From Micromonospora phaseoli (lineage in GTDB: Bacteria; Actinomycetota; Actinomycetes; Mycobacteriales; Micromonosporaceae): 64,000 nucleotides of DNA. A program made the position numbers and the translations under genes. The stretch is taken from contig NZ_FNYV01000004.1 in NCBI RefSeq assembly GCF_900109115.1, positions 372,001 through 436,000 of the forward strand, given 5' to 3'. The number at the start of each line of letters is the position of its first letter. The stretch's first letter is position 1. The notes beneath the pieces are model-generated. The model had not been told where the DNA came from. It saw only the letters and a program-made list of their open reading frames with translations, and did no database searches. Of the stretch, positions 42,633 to 47,422 are shown one piece after another.

Positions 42633-44243
42633 TCAGCCGGGCAGCGGTGCCTCGTCACCCCGGTTGCGGCGCGGGGAGACCAGTCGGCGCACCATCGGGG
42701 TGGCATTCCACCTCGCCGCGCCGACCAGGTCGCGGGCGTGTTCCAGCACGGTGTAGTCGGGCCGCGCCCGACCGGCGGCGAGCGCGGCGTCCAGGTCGTT
42801 GCCGCAGCGCATCAGCACGCTGTCGAAGTCGCGGCGGACCGGCTCCAGCAGGTGGTACCCGAACGAGCGGTGCAACCGGGCGAAGAGCGGCTTGTACAGC
42901 CGGGCCCGCTCGTGCAGCCCCGACGAGTACGACATCGGGTTCTTCGGCCGACGCCGGATGTAGTCGGGCAGTATGTCGGCGAAGGCCCGGCGGACGATCC
43001 ACTTCTCCTGACCGTCACGCATCTTCAGCTCGATCGGCAGCCGCATCGCCAGCTCGACCAGGGCCAGGTCCAGGAACGGCACCCGTGCCTCCACGCCGAA
43101 ACCCATGCTCGTCCGGTCGACGCGCTGCAACTCCGTACGGCACAGGTTTCGGATCTTGTGCAGGAAGAGCCGCCGGGACGCCTCCGGCCCGACCTCGTGG
43201 TACATCGGGTAGCCACCGAACAGTTCGTCGGAACCGTCGCCGGTGAGCACCACCTTGACCCCCAGGTCCCGCAGCCGCCGGAAGATCGGCACCGAGACGA
43301 CCGCGTTGATGATGTCGCCGTACTCGGTCAGCTCGGAGACTCCGATCGCCTCCCGGACGTCGGCCAGCCGGATGTCGCGCGGGCGCAGCTCGACCACCTC
43401 GTGTGGCACCCCGAGGTCCTTCGCCAACCGCCGGGCGTACGCCAGGTCGGGACTGCCCGGTGCCCCGACGGTGACCGCGACGCAGTCCGGGTGCAGCTGT
43501 GCCGCGTGCAGCAACGCCAGCGAGCTGTCCAGGCCGCCGGAGAGCACCACACCCACCGTGAGATCGGTGTCCAGCCGCACCCGGATGCTGTCGGTGAGGG
43601 CGGCACGGACGAGCAGGGCGGCCTCGTCCGGGTCGTCCACCATCGGCAGGTCCGCGCCGAGCGCGAGCAGGTCCACGTACGGACGCAGCCGGACCTGCCG
43701 GTCGGCGTCGGCCCAGCCGTGATGCCCCGGGGGCACCTCGACCACCGGCGCGCCCACCCGGACCAACGCCTTCACCTCGCTCGCCACGTGCAGGCATCCG
43801 GGGCTGCGCGACCAGTACAGCGGCTTCACCCCGAGCGGATCCCGCGCCAGGTACGCCCGACCGGTGGCCCGATCCACGATGGCGAAGGCGTACTCACCGC
43901 GCAGCCGGGTCACCACCTGGTCACCCCACTGCTCGAACGCGGCGAGCACCACCTCGGTGTCGCTGGCACTGCGGAACTCGTGCCCGAGTTCGGTCAGCTC
44001 GGCGCGCAGCTCGTGGTGGTTGAAGACCTCGCCGTTGTAGCAGAGCAGCCAGCGCTCGCCGACGGAGACCCACGGCTGCACGGCACGTTCCCGGTCCACC
44101 ACCCGCAACCGCCGGACCCCGGCGAGCAGGCCGCTTTCGTACCGGGTCTCGGTGACCTCACCGCGCGGGGAGAGCGTGCCGAGCATCCGCCGGAAGATCG
44201 CCGGATCGGCCTCTGGGCCGAGGCTGAGCACAATTCCGCACAT
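42633..44243 (-). CDS. Glutamine-dependent asparagine synthetase-like amidotransferase
   Basis: 536 residues with the class II glutaminase at the N-terminus (MCGIVLSLG, catalytic Cys2; YNGEVFNHHELRAEL) and the ATP-pyrophosphatase synthetase domain (VVLSGGLDSSLALLHAA, LTGDGSDELFGGYPMY, GFGVEARVPFLDLALVELA). Either it makes free asparagine (AsnB) or, like LtsA/AsnB1-type enzymes, amidates a cell-wall precursor. Shorter than AsnB of E. coli-type (about 550) but complete. It starts three bases after the stop of a gene for an M15-like peptidase, which favours the cell-wall reading. Confidence 0.9.
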   Translation of the reverse strand: MCGIVLSLGPEADPAIFRRMLGTLSPRGEVTETRYESGLLAGVRRLRVVDRERAVQPWVSVGERWLLCYNGEVFNHHELRAELTELGHEFRSASDTEVVLAAFEQWGDQVVTRLRGEYAFAIVDRATGRAYLARDPLGVKPLYWSRSPGCLHVASEVKALVRVGAPVVEVPPGHHGWADADRQVRLRPYVDLLALGADLPMVDDPDEAALLVRAALTDSIRVRLDTDLTVGVVLSGGLDSSLALLHAAQLHPDCVAVTVGAPGSPDLAYARRLAKDLGVPHEVVELRPRDIRLADVREAIGVSELTEYGDIINAVVSVPIFRRLRDLGVKVVLTGDGSDELFGGYPMYHEVGPEASRRLFLHKIRNLCRTELQRVDRTSMGFGVEARVPFLDLALVELAMRLPIELKMRDGQEKWIVRRAFADILPDYIRRRPKNPMSYSSGLHERARLYKPLFARLHRSFGYHLLEPVRRDFDSVLMRCGNDLDAALAAGRARPDYTVLEHARDLVGAARWNATPMVRRLVSPRRNRGDEAPLPG

Positions 44244-44246
44244 CGT

Positions 44247-45203
44247 TCAGATCCCCATCTCGGCTTCGTACGCCCGACGCAGCCGCAGGGTCGCGGACGG
44301 CGCGAGACAGATGTGCCACGCCTGCCCCTCGTCGACCACGTTGATCTCTCCGGCCCGTTGCCTGCTCAGCAACAGCCCGGCCAGGGTGTCCCGCACGCCG
44401 AAGCGGCCGAACCACTCCATCTCCACGTCCGCCGCCCAGCCCAGGCAGTGCCCGCTGGGCACCATCGCGGCGTACCCGAGGCGCCGCAACCGGTACTGGT
44501 GCTCGGCGCTGCGGACCAGGCTGGTCACCCACAGCGGCGGGGTGCCCGCCGGGGTGGCGGCGGCGAACTCCCGGCCGATGTCGTTGAGCAGGGCGACCAC
44601 CTCACGGCGGGCCCGGCGGAAGAGCAACCCGGCGGTACGCGGGGTGGCGTCGGGCAACATCCGACGGCGCACGGCGCGTACCCCCCGGCCGACGACCGTG
44701 CGGGGCTGCTCGGTGTAGCGGAACCGCAGCAGGTCCCGGCGTCGCAGCCATTCCAGGTCGACCAGTTCGGTGCTGTGGTGCACCTCCGTGTCGGTGAGGA
44801 AGGTCGACGCGTCGCGCCACCACATCACGTCGACGCGGGACAGCAGGTAGATGCGGACCAGGGCGGCGAGGTCGCCGGCGGAGCTGCGCGCGTTCGGCTG
44901 GTACCGCGCCATCTCCAGCAGCAGGGTCTCGCGGGCGCCGATCAGGCCCTGCGAGGTCGCTTCGAGCACCTTGGCGATGGCCGGCTCCCGCAGTCGCTGG
45001 TCGATCAGCACCTGACGGGCGTTCGTGCTGGCCGCCTGGGCGAGCGCACCCACCTCGACCAGCAGTTCGGCGACGGCCTCGCGGTAGGCCTCCAGGTCGG
45101 GCGGGGCGGCGGTGAGCGGGCGTACGCTGCCACGCGGACGACGTCGGGCCGGAGTGACAGGCGGACCGGACTGATGTCCCGGGCTTCGGCTGGGCACTCG
45201 CAT
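44247..45203 (-). CDS. DUF5715 protein with D,D-peptidase (M15-like) motif
   Basis: 318 residues; ATG 45203 follows GAGAGGA. The N-terminal half is helical with long charged stretches and no signal peptide. The C-terminal half has VTSLVRSAEHQYRL, SGHCLGWAADVEMEWF and INVVDEGQAWHICL. S-x-H-x-x-G-x-A-x-D followed by W-H is the zinc motif of the M15/VanX-type D-Ala-D-Ala peptidases, so a zinc hydrolase fold is likely. Cytoplasmic location would fit a precursor-peptide or D-Ala-D-Ala hydrolase. Co-transcribed with the amidotransferase three bases downstream. Confidence 0.8.
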   Translation of the reverse strand: MRVPSRSPGHQSGPPVTPARRRPRGSVRPLTAAPPDLEAYREAVAELLVEVGALAQAASTNARQVLIDQRLREPAIAKVLEATSQGLIGARETLLLEMARYQPNARSSAGDLAALVRIYLLSRVDVMWWRDASTFLTDTEVHHSTELVDLEWLRRRDLLRFRYTEQPRTVVGRGVRAVRRRMLPDATPRTAGLLFRRARREVVALLNDIGREFAAATPAGTPPLWVTSLVRSAEHQYRLRRLGYAAMVPSGHCLGWAADVEMEWFGRFGVRDTLAGLLLSRQRAGEINVVDEGQAWHICLAPSATLRLRRAYEAEMGI

Positions 45204-45392
45204 GGTCGGTCCTCTCTGCCGGTGCGACGATCGCCTGTTGCAGACAGTAACCACGCGAATCGGGATAAGTGCGAGCAGCACTCCTATATCCCTCTAAGGC
45301 GTGGCAGAAGCGGCGTAGATGTCACGTGTCGCGCAGTGGCAGACACGCACCCGACTCAGGCGGTAATCACGGCGTTGACCACACTGAACACT

Positions 45393-45412
45393 CATGTACC
45401 ATCCGGTACATG
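45393..45412 (+). promoter_or_regulatory. TetR operator 1, over the start of the SRPBCC gene
   Basis: CATGTACC-ATCC-GGTACATG: eight-base perfect arms. The same arms and spacing recur at 47403-47422 in front of the tetR gene. The right arm contains the ATG start codon of the SRPBCC gene at 45410. Confidence 0.8.
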
Positions 45413-45844
45413 TCGATAGTGGTTGATCAGCCCGTTCGCGCCGACCGCACCTCCCTGTGGAGAGCGGTGAGCGCCCTCGATCGCTGGGCCGAGTTGTTAC
45501 CCACCGTCAACGAGGTCAGGCGGGTCGACGGTCCCGGGCCGATCACGGTCGGGAGTCGCTTCCTGGTTCGCCAGCCAGGGCTGGCGGCCGCCACGTACCA
45601 GGTGACCGACTGGCGTCCCGAGGCCGGCTTCACCTGGGCAGCCCGCACCGCGGGCGTGCGGACCACGGCGACGCACGTCCTGCATCCGGAGGGCGACACC
45701 ACCCGGCTGCAACTGCGCATCGACTGGGACGGCCCCGGCTCCCGGCTCGTGCGGGTGCTCTTCGCCAGGCGGACCCGACGGCTGCTCGAGCAGGAGGCCG
45801 CGACCTTCGCCAGCCTGGCCGAGCGCGGCCACGGCGAGGTGTGA
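45410..45844 (+). CDS. SRPBCC (START/Bet v 1-like) family protein
   Basis: 144 residues with the helix-grip fold: MSIVVDQPVRADRTSLW, LDRWAELLPTVNEVRRVDG, GSRFLVRQPGLAAATYQVTDW and a long C-terminal helix (RLVRVLFARRTRRLLEQEA). Family members bind a hydrophobic ligand; some are polyketide cyclases or ligand carriers, others control membrane lipids. The start codon lies inside a TetR operator and no ribosome site precedes it, so the message may be leaderless. It overlaps no gene but is followed after five bases by the SMP-30 gene, so the two form an operon. Confidence 0.88.
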   Translation: MSIVVDQPVRADRTSLWRAVSALDRWAELLPTVNEVRRVDGPGPITVGSRFLVRQPGLAAATYQVTDWRPEAGFTWAARTAGVRTTATHVLHPEGDTTRLQLRIDWDGPGSRLVRVLFARRTRRLLEQEAATFASLAERGHGEV

Positions 45845-45849
45845 CGCCG

Positions 45850-46758
45850 ATGTCGACCGTCGAACGGGTACCGACCCAGTGGGAGGTACTGGACGAGCGG
45901 TTCCGAGCGGTGCGGGGTGACCACGTCGTGCAGCGGCTGTTCGACGGCGGACGCTGGCTGGAGGGGCCGGCCTACTCCCCCGCGTGGCGCTGCCTGCTGT
46001 TCAGTGACATCCCGAACGACCGGGTGCTGCGCTGGGACGAGGTGTCCGGCCGGTGCGATGTCTTCCAGACCCCCGCCGGCTACGCCAACGGCCGCACCCT
46101 CGATAGGCGCGGCCGCGTCGTCACCTGCGAGCACGGACCCCGTCGGGTGACCCGCACCGAGCCCGACGGGTCGCAGACCGTCGTGGCGGACCGCTGGCGC
46201 GGCAAGCGGTTCAACAGTCCGAACGACGTCGTGGAGACCGCGGACGGCTCGTTGTGGTTCACCGACCCGAGCTACGGCATCGACAGCGACTACGAGGGCC
46301 ACCGGGCGGAGCCGGAACTGGACGGCTGCCACGTCTACCGCTGCTCACCCGACGGCCGCGTGGACCGGGTAGCCGACGACTTCCAACGGCCCAACGGTCT
46401 CGCGTTCTCCGCGGACGAGCGCCGGCTGTACATCGTCGACACCCAGCGCCGGCACCTGCGGCACTTCGATGTCGGACCGGACTGGGCGCTACGCGACCGC
46501 GGCGTACTCGCCGACTGTGACGCCGGGTCGTTCGACGGGATCCGGCTGGACAGCGCGGGCCGGCTCTGGGTCGCCGCCCACGACGGCGTGCACTGTCTCG
46601 ACCAGGACGGGACCATGCTCGGCAAGCTCCGACTGCCGGAGATCTGCTCGAACCTCACCTTCGGTGGCCGCAAGCGCAACGTGCTGTTCGTGACGGCAAC
46701 CACCTCGGTCTACTCGCTCGCGCTCAACGTCACCGGTGCCGGGCCGACGGGCGGGTGA
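45850..46758 (+). CDS. SMP-30/gluconolactonase family lactonase
   Basis: 302 residues forming the six-blade propeller of the SMP-30 family. Metal ligands are in WLEGPAYSP (Glu), TPAGYANGRT, RFNSPNDVVE (Asn) and AGSFDGIRLD (Asp), matching calcium-dependent lactonases that open sugar or other lactones. It follows the SRPBCC gene by five bases and is controlled by the TetR operator upstream of it. A ligand-binding SRPBCC plus a lactonase under a TetR repressor suggests breakdown of a small hydrophobic lactone, perhaps a signal or antibiotic; that is inference. Confidence 0.93.
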   Translation: MSTVERVPTQWEVLDERFRAVRGDHVVQRLFDGGRWLEGPAYSPAWRCLLFSDIPNDRVLRWDEVSGRCDVFQTPAGYANGRTLDRRGRVVTCEHGPRRVTRTEPDGSQTVVADRWRGKRFNSPNDVVETADGSLWFTDPSYGIDSDYEGHRAEPELDGCHVYRCSPDGRVDRVADDFQRPNGLAFSADERRLYIVDTQRRHLRHFDVGPDWALRDRGVLADCDAGSFDGIRLDSAGRLWVAAHDGVHCLDQDGTMLGKLRLPEICSNLTFGGRKRNVLFVTATTSVYSLALNVTGAGPTGG

Positions 46759-46794
46759 CCCCACCGCCGCGACCACGGCCACACCGCGGCGAGG

Positions 46795-47379
46795 TCACCC
46801 GGCACGGCGGGACGGCCGCGTCGAGTCCAGAAAGGCCGCCATCGTCGCGTCGGCGGTGGCCCGGTCACCGGTCAGGGCAAGCTCGAACAGCACGCCCCGG
46901 GTCATCGCCATCGCCATCCGCGCCTGAGCCTGGGCCTGGGCGGGCGGGTGGCCGACGTCCTCGAAGAACTGACCGAGCCGGTCGGTCCAGACGACGATCC
47001 AGGTACGCAGCGAACTCGCCCACGCGTGCCCCTGCATCGCCGCCGCCGACATCTCGAAGAACAACGGCGCGAACGCGCGGTCGTCGGCGAGCCGGACCCA
47101 GAATTGCCAGGCCCCGTCGTACGGGTCGTCGGCCGCCTCACGTGGCAGCGACTCGAGAAACTCCTGCTGGTCCCGCCAGATGGCCTCGACCATCGCGGTG
47201 AGCAACCCGGCGCGAGAGCCGAAGTGGTAGATGAGCATCCGGTGACTCGTGCCGATCTGCGCGGCGAGGGTACGCAGGCTGGTGTCCCCGACGCCGTTGG
47301 CCGCGAACCATGCGATCGCCCGCCGCAGGAGCGCCTCCTGCGGACCTGTGGCGGGCTCTGCGACGGTCACGACAGGCAT
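46795..47379 (-). CDS. TetR-family repressor
   Basis: 194 residues from ATG 47379; the frame is open upstream but those 57 codons read through the operator and are not TetR-like. The HTH is TSLRTLAAQIGTSHRMLIYHFGSRAGLLTA; the helical ligand domain follows. It is convergent with the lactonase gene and its own promoter holds operator 2, identical in arms to operator 1 before the SRPBCC gene, so it should repress both units. Ligand unknown; the ligand pocket would be expected to take the lactonase substrate. Confidence 0.92.
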   Translation of the reverse strand: MPVVTVAEPATGPQEALLRRAIAWFAANGVGDTSLRTLAAQIGTSHRMLIYHFGSRAGLLTAMVEAIWRDQQEFLESLPREAADDPYDGAWQFWVRLADDRAFAPLFFEMSAAAMQGHAWASSLRTWIVVWTDRLGQFFEDVGHPPAQAQAQARMAMAMTRGVLFELALTGDRATADATMAAFLDSTRPSRRAG

Positions 47380-47402
47380 GCTACGGCCACCACCGCCACC
47401 CG

Positions 47403-47422
47403 CATGTACCGTTCGGTACATG
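47403..47422 (-). promoter_or_regulatory. TetR operator 2, in the tetR promoter
   Basis: CATGTACC-GTTC-GGTACATG: eight-base perfect arms, identical to operator 1 at 45393-45412; 24 bases before the ATG of the TetR gene. Confidence 0.82.

Follow-up and report, generated by a model that had tools for sequence, protein, structure and literature searches.

A 20-bp palindrome that probably joins a TetR operator, a −10 box and a start codon in Micromonospora phaseoli and its relatives

In Micromonospora phaseoli, a 20-bp palindrome near a tetR gene probably serves at once as the operator of the repressor and as the −10 box, transcription start and start codon of the gene that it controls. It lies in a stretch of 64,000 nucleotides of contig NZ_FNYV01000004.1 (the window), next to an SRPBCC gene, an SMP-30/gluconolactonase (SGL) gene and tetR (Table 1). 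From sequence comparison we infer TetR binding, repression, the transcript ends, the ligand and the function, and we hold the explanation as a whole to be highly probable. TetR would be a repressor that is released by a ligand and whose operator is CATGTACC-N4-GGTACATG (core TGTACC-N4-GGTACA). For the target gene, the single palindrome would include a −10 box (TACCAT), the point where transcription begins and the codon where translation begins. The SRPBCC mRNA would start on the A of ATG 45410 or beside it, with no leader, and since it starts there, the bound dimer would cover the promoter from −10 through +3 and shut it. In this genome, a second operator over the −35 region of tetR may add autoregulation. 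A small molecule would free TetR, and SRPBCC and the SMP-30-type hydrolase would be turned on. The SRPBCC protein is probably a binder of a hydrophobic ligand or an enzyme, and together the two proteins would most likely detoxify or break down the inducing molecule.

Table 1. Features of the tetR locus and their positions in the window; regulatory elements are predictions.
Feature	Position	Strand	Remarks
−35-like hexamer TTGACC	45375..45380	+	16 nt ahead of the −10 box; read from the sequence
Operator 1, CATGTACC-ATCC-GGTACATG	45393..45412	.	Overlaps the −10 box and the SRPBCC start codon; kept in the family
−10 box TACCAT	45397..45402	+	In operator 1, 7 nt ahead of the ATG
SRPBCC (Polyketide_cyc2) gene	45410..45844	+	144 aa; start codon formed by the last 3 bases of operator 1
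SMP-30/gluconolactonase (SGL) gene	45850..46758	+	302 aa; 5 nt past the SRPBCC stop
tetR gene	46795..47370	−	191 aa from GTG 47370; alternative start ATG 47379
−10 box TAGCAT of a probable leaderless tetR promoter	47378..47383	−	From the sequence and relatives
Operator 2, CATGTACC-GTTC-GGTACATG	47403..47422	.	About −33 to −52 of the putative tetR promoter

Both palindromes are present where the preliminary description had placed them. It had called the two operators identical. This is true of the arms, but the spacers differ in 2 of 4 bases. It had also judged a chance origin unlikely, and the counts agree: the two palindromes are the only matches in the window with up to 3 mismatches, and 100 dinucleotide shuffles scored in the same way gave a mean of 0.06 matches, with none reaching two. 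In the genome of the strain (6.5 Mb, 30 contigs), the only 2 intact copies are those of the window; the pattern is not common across the genome independently of TetR. The next-best site has 2 mismatches. This site (C19:331343; L060:6344-6363) reads TACCGT, 7 nt and the ATG of a 120-aa frame, and it looks like an ordinary leaderless promoter.

Comparison of genomes shows that the candidate operator is conserved, is tied to TetR and is placed on start codons, and that the genes behind it have been swapped. We fetched TetR loci by homology of the protein, ignoring operators. The set of 92 consisted of the best 80 of 217 relatives and 12 loci of the genus, which came from the 24 genomes with a TetR match among 151 genomes of the genus, M. 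phaseoli included. Another 12 genus loci that duplicated named ones were left out, as was L058, which had been fetched by the pattern. The proposed tie between palindrome and TetR held in this set: a perfect core lay within 2.5 kb of the TetR match in 80 of the 92 loci and a core with at most one mismatch in 90, and over whole loci the counts were 80 and 91. As a control, 179 half-site-permuted palindromes were scored over the 92 whole loci. They occurred perfectly in a mean of 0.017 loci (maximum 1) and with at most one mismatch in a mean of 1.1 loci (maximum 10). When one representative was taken per greedy 60% identity cluster (n = 20), the core was perfect in 15 and within one mismatch in all 20. 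Twelve loci have no SRPBCC match, and in 10 of these a palindrome with at most one mismatch still lies near TetR, which indicates that the palindrome follows TetR and not SRPBCC.

The reverse search gave the same pairing. The intact 20-mer occurs in 7 of the 151 genus genomes, each time with a TetR homolog adjoining it, which in G100 is a fragment at a contig end. Five of 296 phylum genomes contain the 18-mer TGTACC-N4-GGTACATG, M. phaseoli being one of them, and the other 4 have TetR beside it; the reversed control pattern scored once in this search. The loci in which the palindrome accompanies TetR carry 30 genus names. Only L070 and L104 yielded no operator with at most one mismatch within 2.5 kb of the TetR match; in L104 only the C-terminal part of tetR is left, and the syntenic site lacks the hydrolase gene. 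Separately, a Sphingobium plasmid (L195, from a proteobacterium) has a TetR that is 34% identical, and one-mismatch operator-like sites occur within the locus.

In the orientation of the target, the consensus is TGTACC-AT-N-T-GGTAC-ATG. A profile search found 79 SRPBCC genes near these TetR genes. An operator lies near the 5′ end of 75 of them, and 59 of the 75 start in frame at its terminal ATG. The profile was built from operator-started proteins, although the frame test also allows for other starts. Among the 16 that start outside the operator, the terminal ATG of L118 and a GTG of L101 are out of frame, and the rest have no start codon at this place. In L057, a 139-aa frame fused to the operator has ATA at the position of the expected ATG; the start test scored this locus as having no operator. 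The tetR gene starts in the operator at 19 of the 92 loci, or at 21 when L086 and L111 are added, where the profile had picked another TetR gene. At least 73 of the 92 loci have some gene that starts at the operator. Three of the four annotated plasmid records (L192, L193, L194) put the start codon of SRPBCC or TetR on an operator end; in L195 the annotated TetR start is not at the operator.

The preliminary description had read the operator ATG as the SRPBCC start codon in a message without a ribosome site. Indeed, no ribosome site is evident in the upstream stretch TACCATCCGGTAC, and the proportion of in-frame starts among relatives makes a leaderless message from this ATG likely. The symmetry of the palindrome leaves position 6 of the −10 hexamer free, yet 54 of 59 SRPBCC starts and 19 of 19 TetR starts have T there. 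The mirror base of this T is present in 8 of 59 and 5 of 19, respectively. Selection for a −10 box would produce this asymmetry. The −35 hexamer is not conserved among relatives (weak column conservation). In the AlphaFold2 model of the SRPBCC protein (mean pLDDT 95.3), the first strand spans residues 2–9.

In some relatives the elements of the palindrome come apart. An alpha/beta hydrolase (identified by a Pfam run on the protein of L064) follows the operator in the syntenic loci L035 and L061–L064 and also in L065, which is more distant. The hydrolase gene has its own ATG and, ahead of it, a purine-rich stretch resembling a ribosome site. The terminal triplets of these six operators, from L035 to L065, are ATA, AAC, ATG, ATG, ATG and ATT. 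Thus, the ATG is lost in 3 of 6; TACCAT is kept in 5 of 6, and L065 has TACCAC. At the distal SGL locus, the operator ahead of SRPBCC-SGL has one or two core mismatches in L154–L156, and in L157 SRPBCC is deleted and SGL is fused in frame to the operator ATG. The palindrome has decayed in L158 and L160, where TACCAT or TAGCAT, the 7-nt gap and the ATG remain, and the right end of the operator is lost in L159. In the genomes G136 and G040, TetR was not found at E 1e-20. The link between operator decay and TetR loss is imperfect: the distal SGL gene of G041 has lost the left arm of the operator despite a full-length tetR, and G098 keeps the operator despite a truncated tetR.

Both SRPBCC and tetR start in the operator, divergently, at five loci. 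Three of them (L108, L109, L125) use two overlapping operators. In the two Phytohabitans loci (L135:4975-4994, L139:4975-4994), the genes start at opposite ends of one palindrome, with 14 bp between the start codons. The centre of this palindrome is a symmetrical ATAT, so TACCAT can be read on either strand. Most other palindromes have an asymmetrical centre. Overlapping pairs of operators with a 16-bp period, some of them imperfect, occur in L108, L109, L111, L118, L125, L127, L136, L138 and L140. Their spacing suggests two dimers side by side.

The TetR protein of the window matches TetR_N (PF00440) with 33.4 bits (cutoff 24). Its orthologs have TAGCAT-N6/7-GTG in common at the gene start, so we place the start of tetR at GTG 47370-47368, which is probably the true start, outside the operator. 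The alternatives are ATG 47379-47377 and an in-frame ATG (47421-47419) inside operator 2; the latter was rejected because the −10-spaced GTG shared by orthologs lies further in. With the start at GTG 47370, operator 2 would cover the −35 region of tetR. The search for an operator near the 5′ end of tetR was negative in the five syntenic orthologs L035 and L061–L064; therefore, a separate operator for autoregulation appears to have been gained locally. Two operators also occur in Saccharomonospora piscinae (L073). Among solved TetR structures the best match is 2hyt (E 1.3e-7), and 2yvh is also close (E 7.2e-6). The 24 solved matches at E ≤ 0.01 include no protein labelled CprB or ArpA, the gamma-butyrolactone receptors, although several carry generic names only.

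Any long sequence contains palindromes by chance, and a palindrome may also be structural DNA, such as a terminator or a hairpin. The shuffles, the genome counts and the permuted-palindrome controls leave practically no room for such an origin here, and the conservation data already refute it. It is also conceivable that the palindromes serve a different regulator, either a paralog of TetR or some other protein, and that the neighbouring TetR is incidental. Paralogs can share operators, and the tie described above is one of sequence. However, the palindrome follows TetR across the 30 genus names and in both search directions, and the M. phaseoli genome contains one match to the TetR of the window at E 1e-20, so we regard another regulator as very improbable.

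A further possibility concerns the start of the message. SRPBCC may be transcribed with a leader from an upstream promoter, TetR being an ordinary roadblock or promoter blocker and the operator ATG reflecting arms that end in CATG. The in-frame GTG at 45269, 141 nt upstream, would suit such a message, and leadered targets do exist in orthologs, where they start about 45 nt past the operator. We nevertheless consider it unlikely. The terminal ATG is in frame in 59 SRPBCC genes and out of frame in 1, the −10 T persists where symmetry does not call for it, and a ribosome site is not evident. Moreover, the geometry of −10 box, 7 nt and ATG outlasts the loss of the palindrome, and the first strand of the SRPBCC model begins at residue 2.

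The two target proteins were characterised by profile and structure searches. The SGL protein matches its profile (PF08450) with 164.3 bits (cutoff 26.3). It resembles the SMP-30/gluconolactonase proteins 3e5z and 3dr2, its closest solved matches, both in alignment (about 270 residues, E 1e-60 and 1.6e-54) and in motif residues: in lEGPa, fNSPND, rPNGLaF and fDGi, the E, N, N and D are kept in both structures. We take this Glu, Asn, Asn and Asp to be the metal-site residues, with roles assigned after regucalcin. The SRPBCC protein matches PF10604 with 46.8 bits (cutoff 27.4). Its top Foldseek matches are 7wa9, 3q63 and plant PYL receptors, and the 50 listed out of 349 solved matches (E ≤ 0.001) all belong to the SRPBCC proteins, with many plant abscisic-acid receptors among them; this likeness does not fix the function. 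None of SRPBCC, SGL and TetR has an NCBIfam match at the curated cutoff. An Rv0910-type toxin (NF047960) was rejected at 24.9 bits against a cutoff of 100.

The pairing of SRPBCC with SMP-30 had been taken to point to a hydrophobic lactone. The wider set does not support this: an SGL relative lies beside TetR at only 2 of the 92 loci (best 80 of 217 relatives plus 12), namely that of M. phaseoli and L073, and elsewhere the operator stands ahead of a lone SRPBCC gene, an alpha/beta hydrolase gene or an FAD monooxygenase gene. SGL was thus rejected as a constant partner, the usual partner being SRPBCC. Because the five syntenic relatives carry the alpha/beta hydrolase instead, the lactonase is, by comparison of loci, a passenger and not a signature, and a lactone ligand is unsupported. 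A second SGL paralog, 59% identical, lies at C20:1276-2166 of the same genome; within the 3.7 kb examined around it there is no operator within 2 core mismatches.

FAD monooxygenases start at the operator ATG in L067 and L075, and on the Pseudonocardia alni plasmid pPaSha1 (L193) the TetR-SRPBCC pair stands beside genes annotated as FAD oxidoreductase, FAD monooxygenase, cupin and alpha/beta hydrolase. These neighbours suggest that an aromatic or polyketide-like compound is broken down or detoxified, and our guess is that the operon of the window serves this purpose. No family that would name a pathway is common among 98 neighbour proteins searched: FAD_binding_3 and DAO occur in 7 each, Pyr_redox_2 in 6 and alpha/beta hydrolase in 3. 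These 98 are 97 of 152 listed neighbours and one L064 protein re-cut to its own start; those left out by eye include the neighbours of the window and of L067.

The locus of the window is syntenic with that of the five relatives L035 and L061–L064, in the order DEAD helicase, tetR, target, DUF5715-like gene and AsnB-like gene, and the hydrolase of these relatives takes the place of SRPBCC-SGL. At 42633-45203, an AsnB-like glutamine-dependent synthase adjoins a weak DUF5715 match, and the pair is syntenic in six relatives. The hydrolase had no match in the M. phaseoli genome at E 1e-15, in a search run without a positive control. In L154–L156, SRPBCC-SGL sits behind a gene that by eye is protease-like. 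The M. phaseoli genome aligns with these loci across this gene but no further, and the 1.5 kb examined beyond it contains nothing that matches the operon. Thus, three of the five syntenic relatives have the operon in trans to tetR and M. phaseoli has it in cis, and perhaps it moved from trans to cis; independent gain and loss would look alike. A more general idea, which we offer tentatively and would not rely on, is that the palindrome is a portable cassette. Any gene joined to its end would fall under TetR, as with the two divergent leaderless genes of Phytohabitans. Cargo (SRPBCC, SGL, tetR, FAD monooxygenase) would be exchanged, and targets would pass between trans and cis, as the operon of the window seems to have done.

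Leaderless operons repressed by TetR proteins are already known, and the principle is not new. According to PMC3017554, AcuR of Rhodobacter sphaeroides is a TetR-family repressor of the acuR-acuI-dddL operon, its operator, an 8-bp inverted repeat, overlaps the promoter as is proposed here, and the transcript begins exactly at the AUG with no ribosome site, as predicted for SRPBCC. The same paper describes the arrangement as conserved in other bacteria, as is the proposed one here. The arms differ (TAATAGAC-n6-GTCTATTA in AcuR, CATGTACC-n4-GGTACATG in the window), and so do the genes, which concern acrylate and DMSP; the leaderless gene there is the regulator itself (PMC3017554). Here, unlike in AcuR, the start codon appears to lie within an arm of the palindrome, and it is usually the target whose message would lack a leader. 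The Rv3160c-Rv3161c system of Mycobacterium tuberculosis also has an actinobacterial TetR repressor with a palindromic operator and an adjoining oxygenase, and the repressor is thought to block the −10 site. Its palindromes are longer, nested and start 29 bp upstream of the operon, and the consulted passages of PMC7810876 do not speak of a start codon within this operator. One of the closer TetR proteins of solved structure is CgmR of Corynebacterium glutamicum (2yvh; named so in PMC4150764), for which there is a structure with bound DNA. It is a multidrug regulator, and its alignment is weak and confined to residues 25-143. Related literature includes a survey of Streptomyces TetR proteins (PMC3511530) and work on CprB (PMC4150764). 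Searches on TetR combined with SRPBCC, polyketide cyclase or leaderless start codons, and on CgmR, found no paper about this regulator among the titles and abstract starts listed, subscription journals being mostly outside their scope, and a search by the operator letters gave nothing relevant among the matches listed.

A TetR subfamily with no paper in the literature searched thus gains a concrete operator and a candidate regulon in many actinobacteria. It offers a comparative case in which a repressor site, a promoter and a start codon appear to have been selected together in 20 bp, and in which natural variants separate these three constraints. It also provides an example of target genes being exchanged while the syntenic site stays the same.
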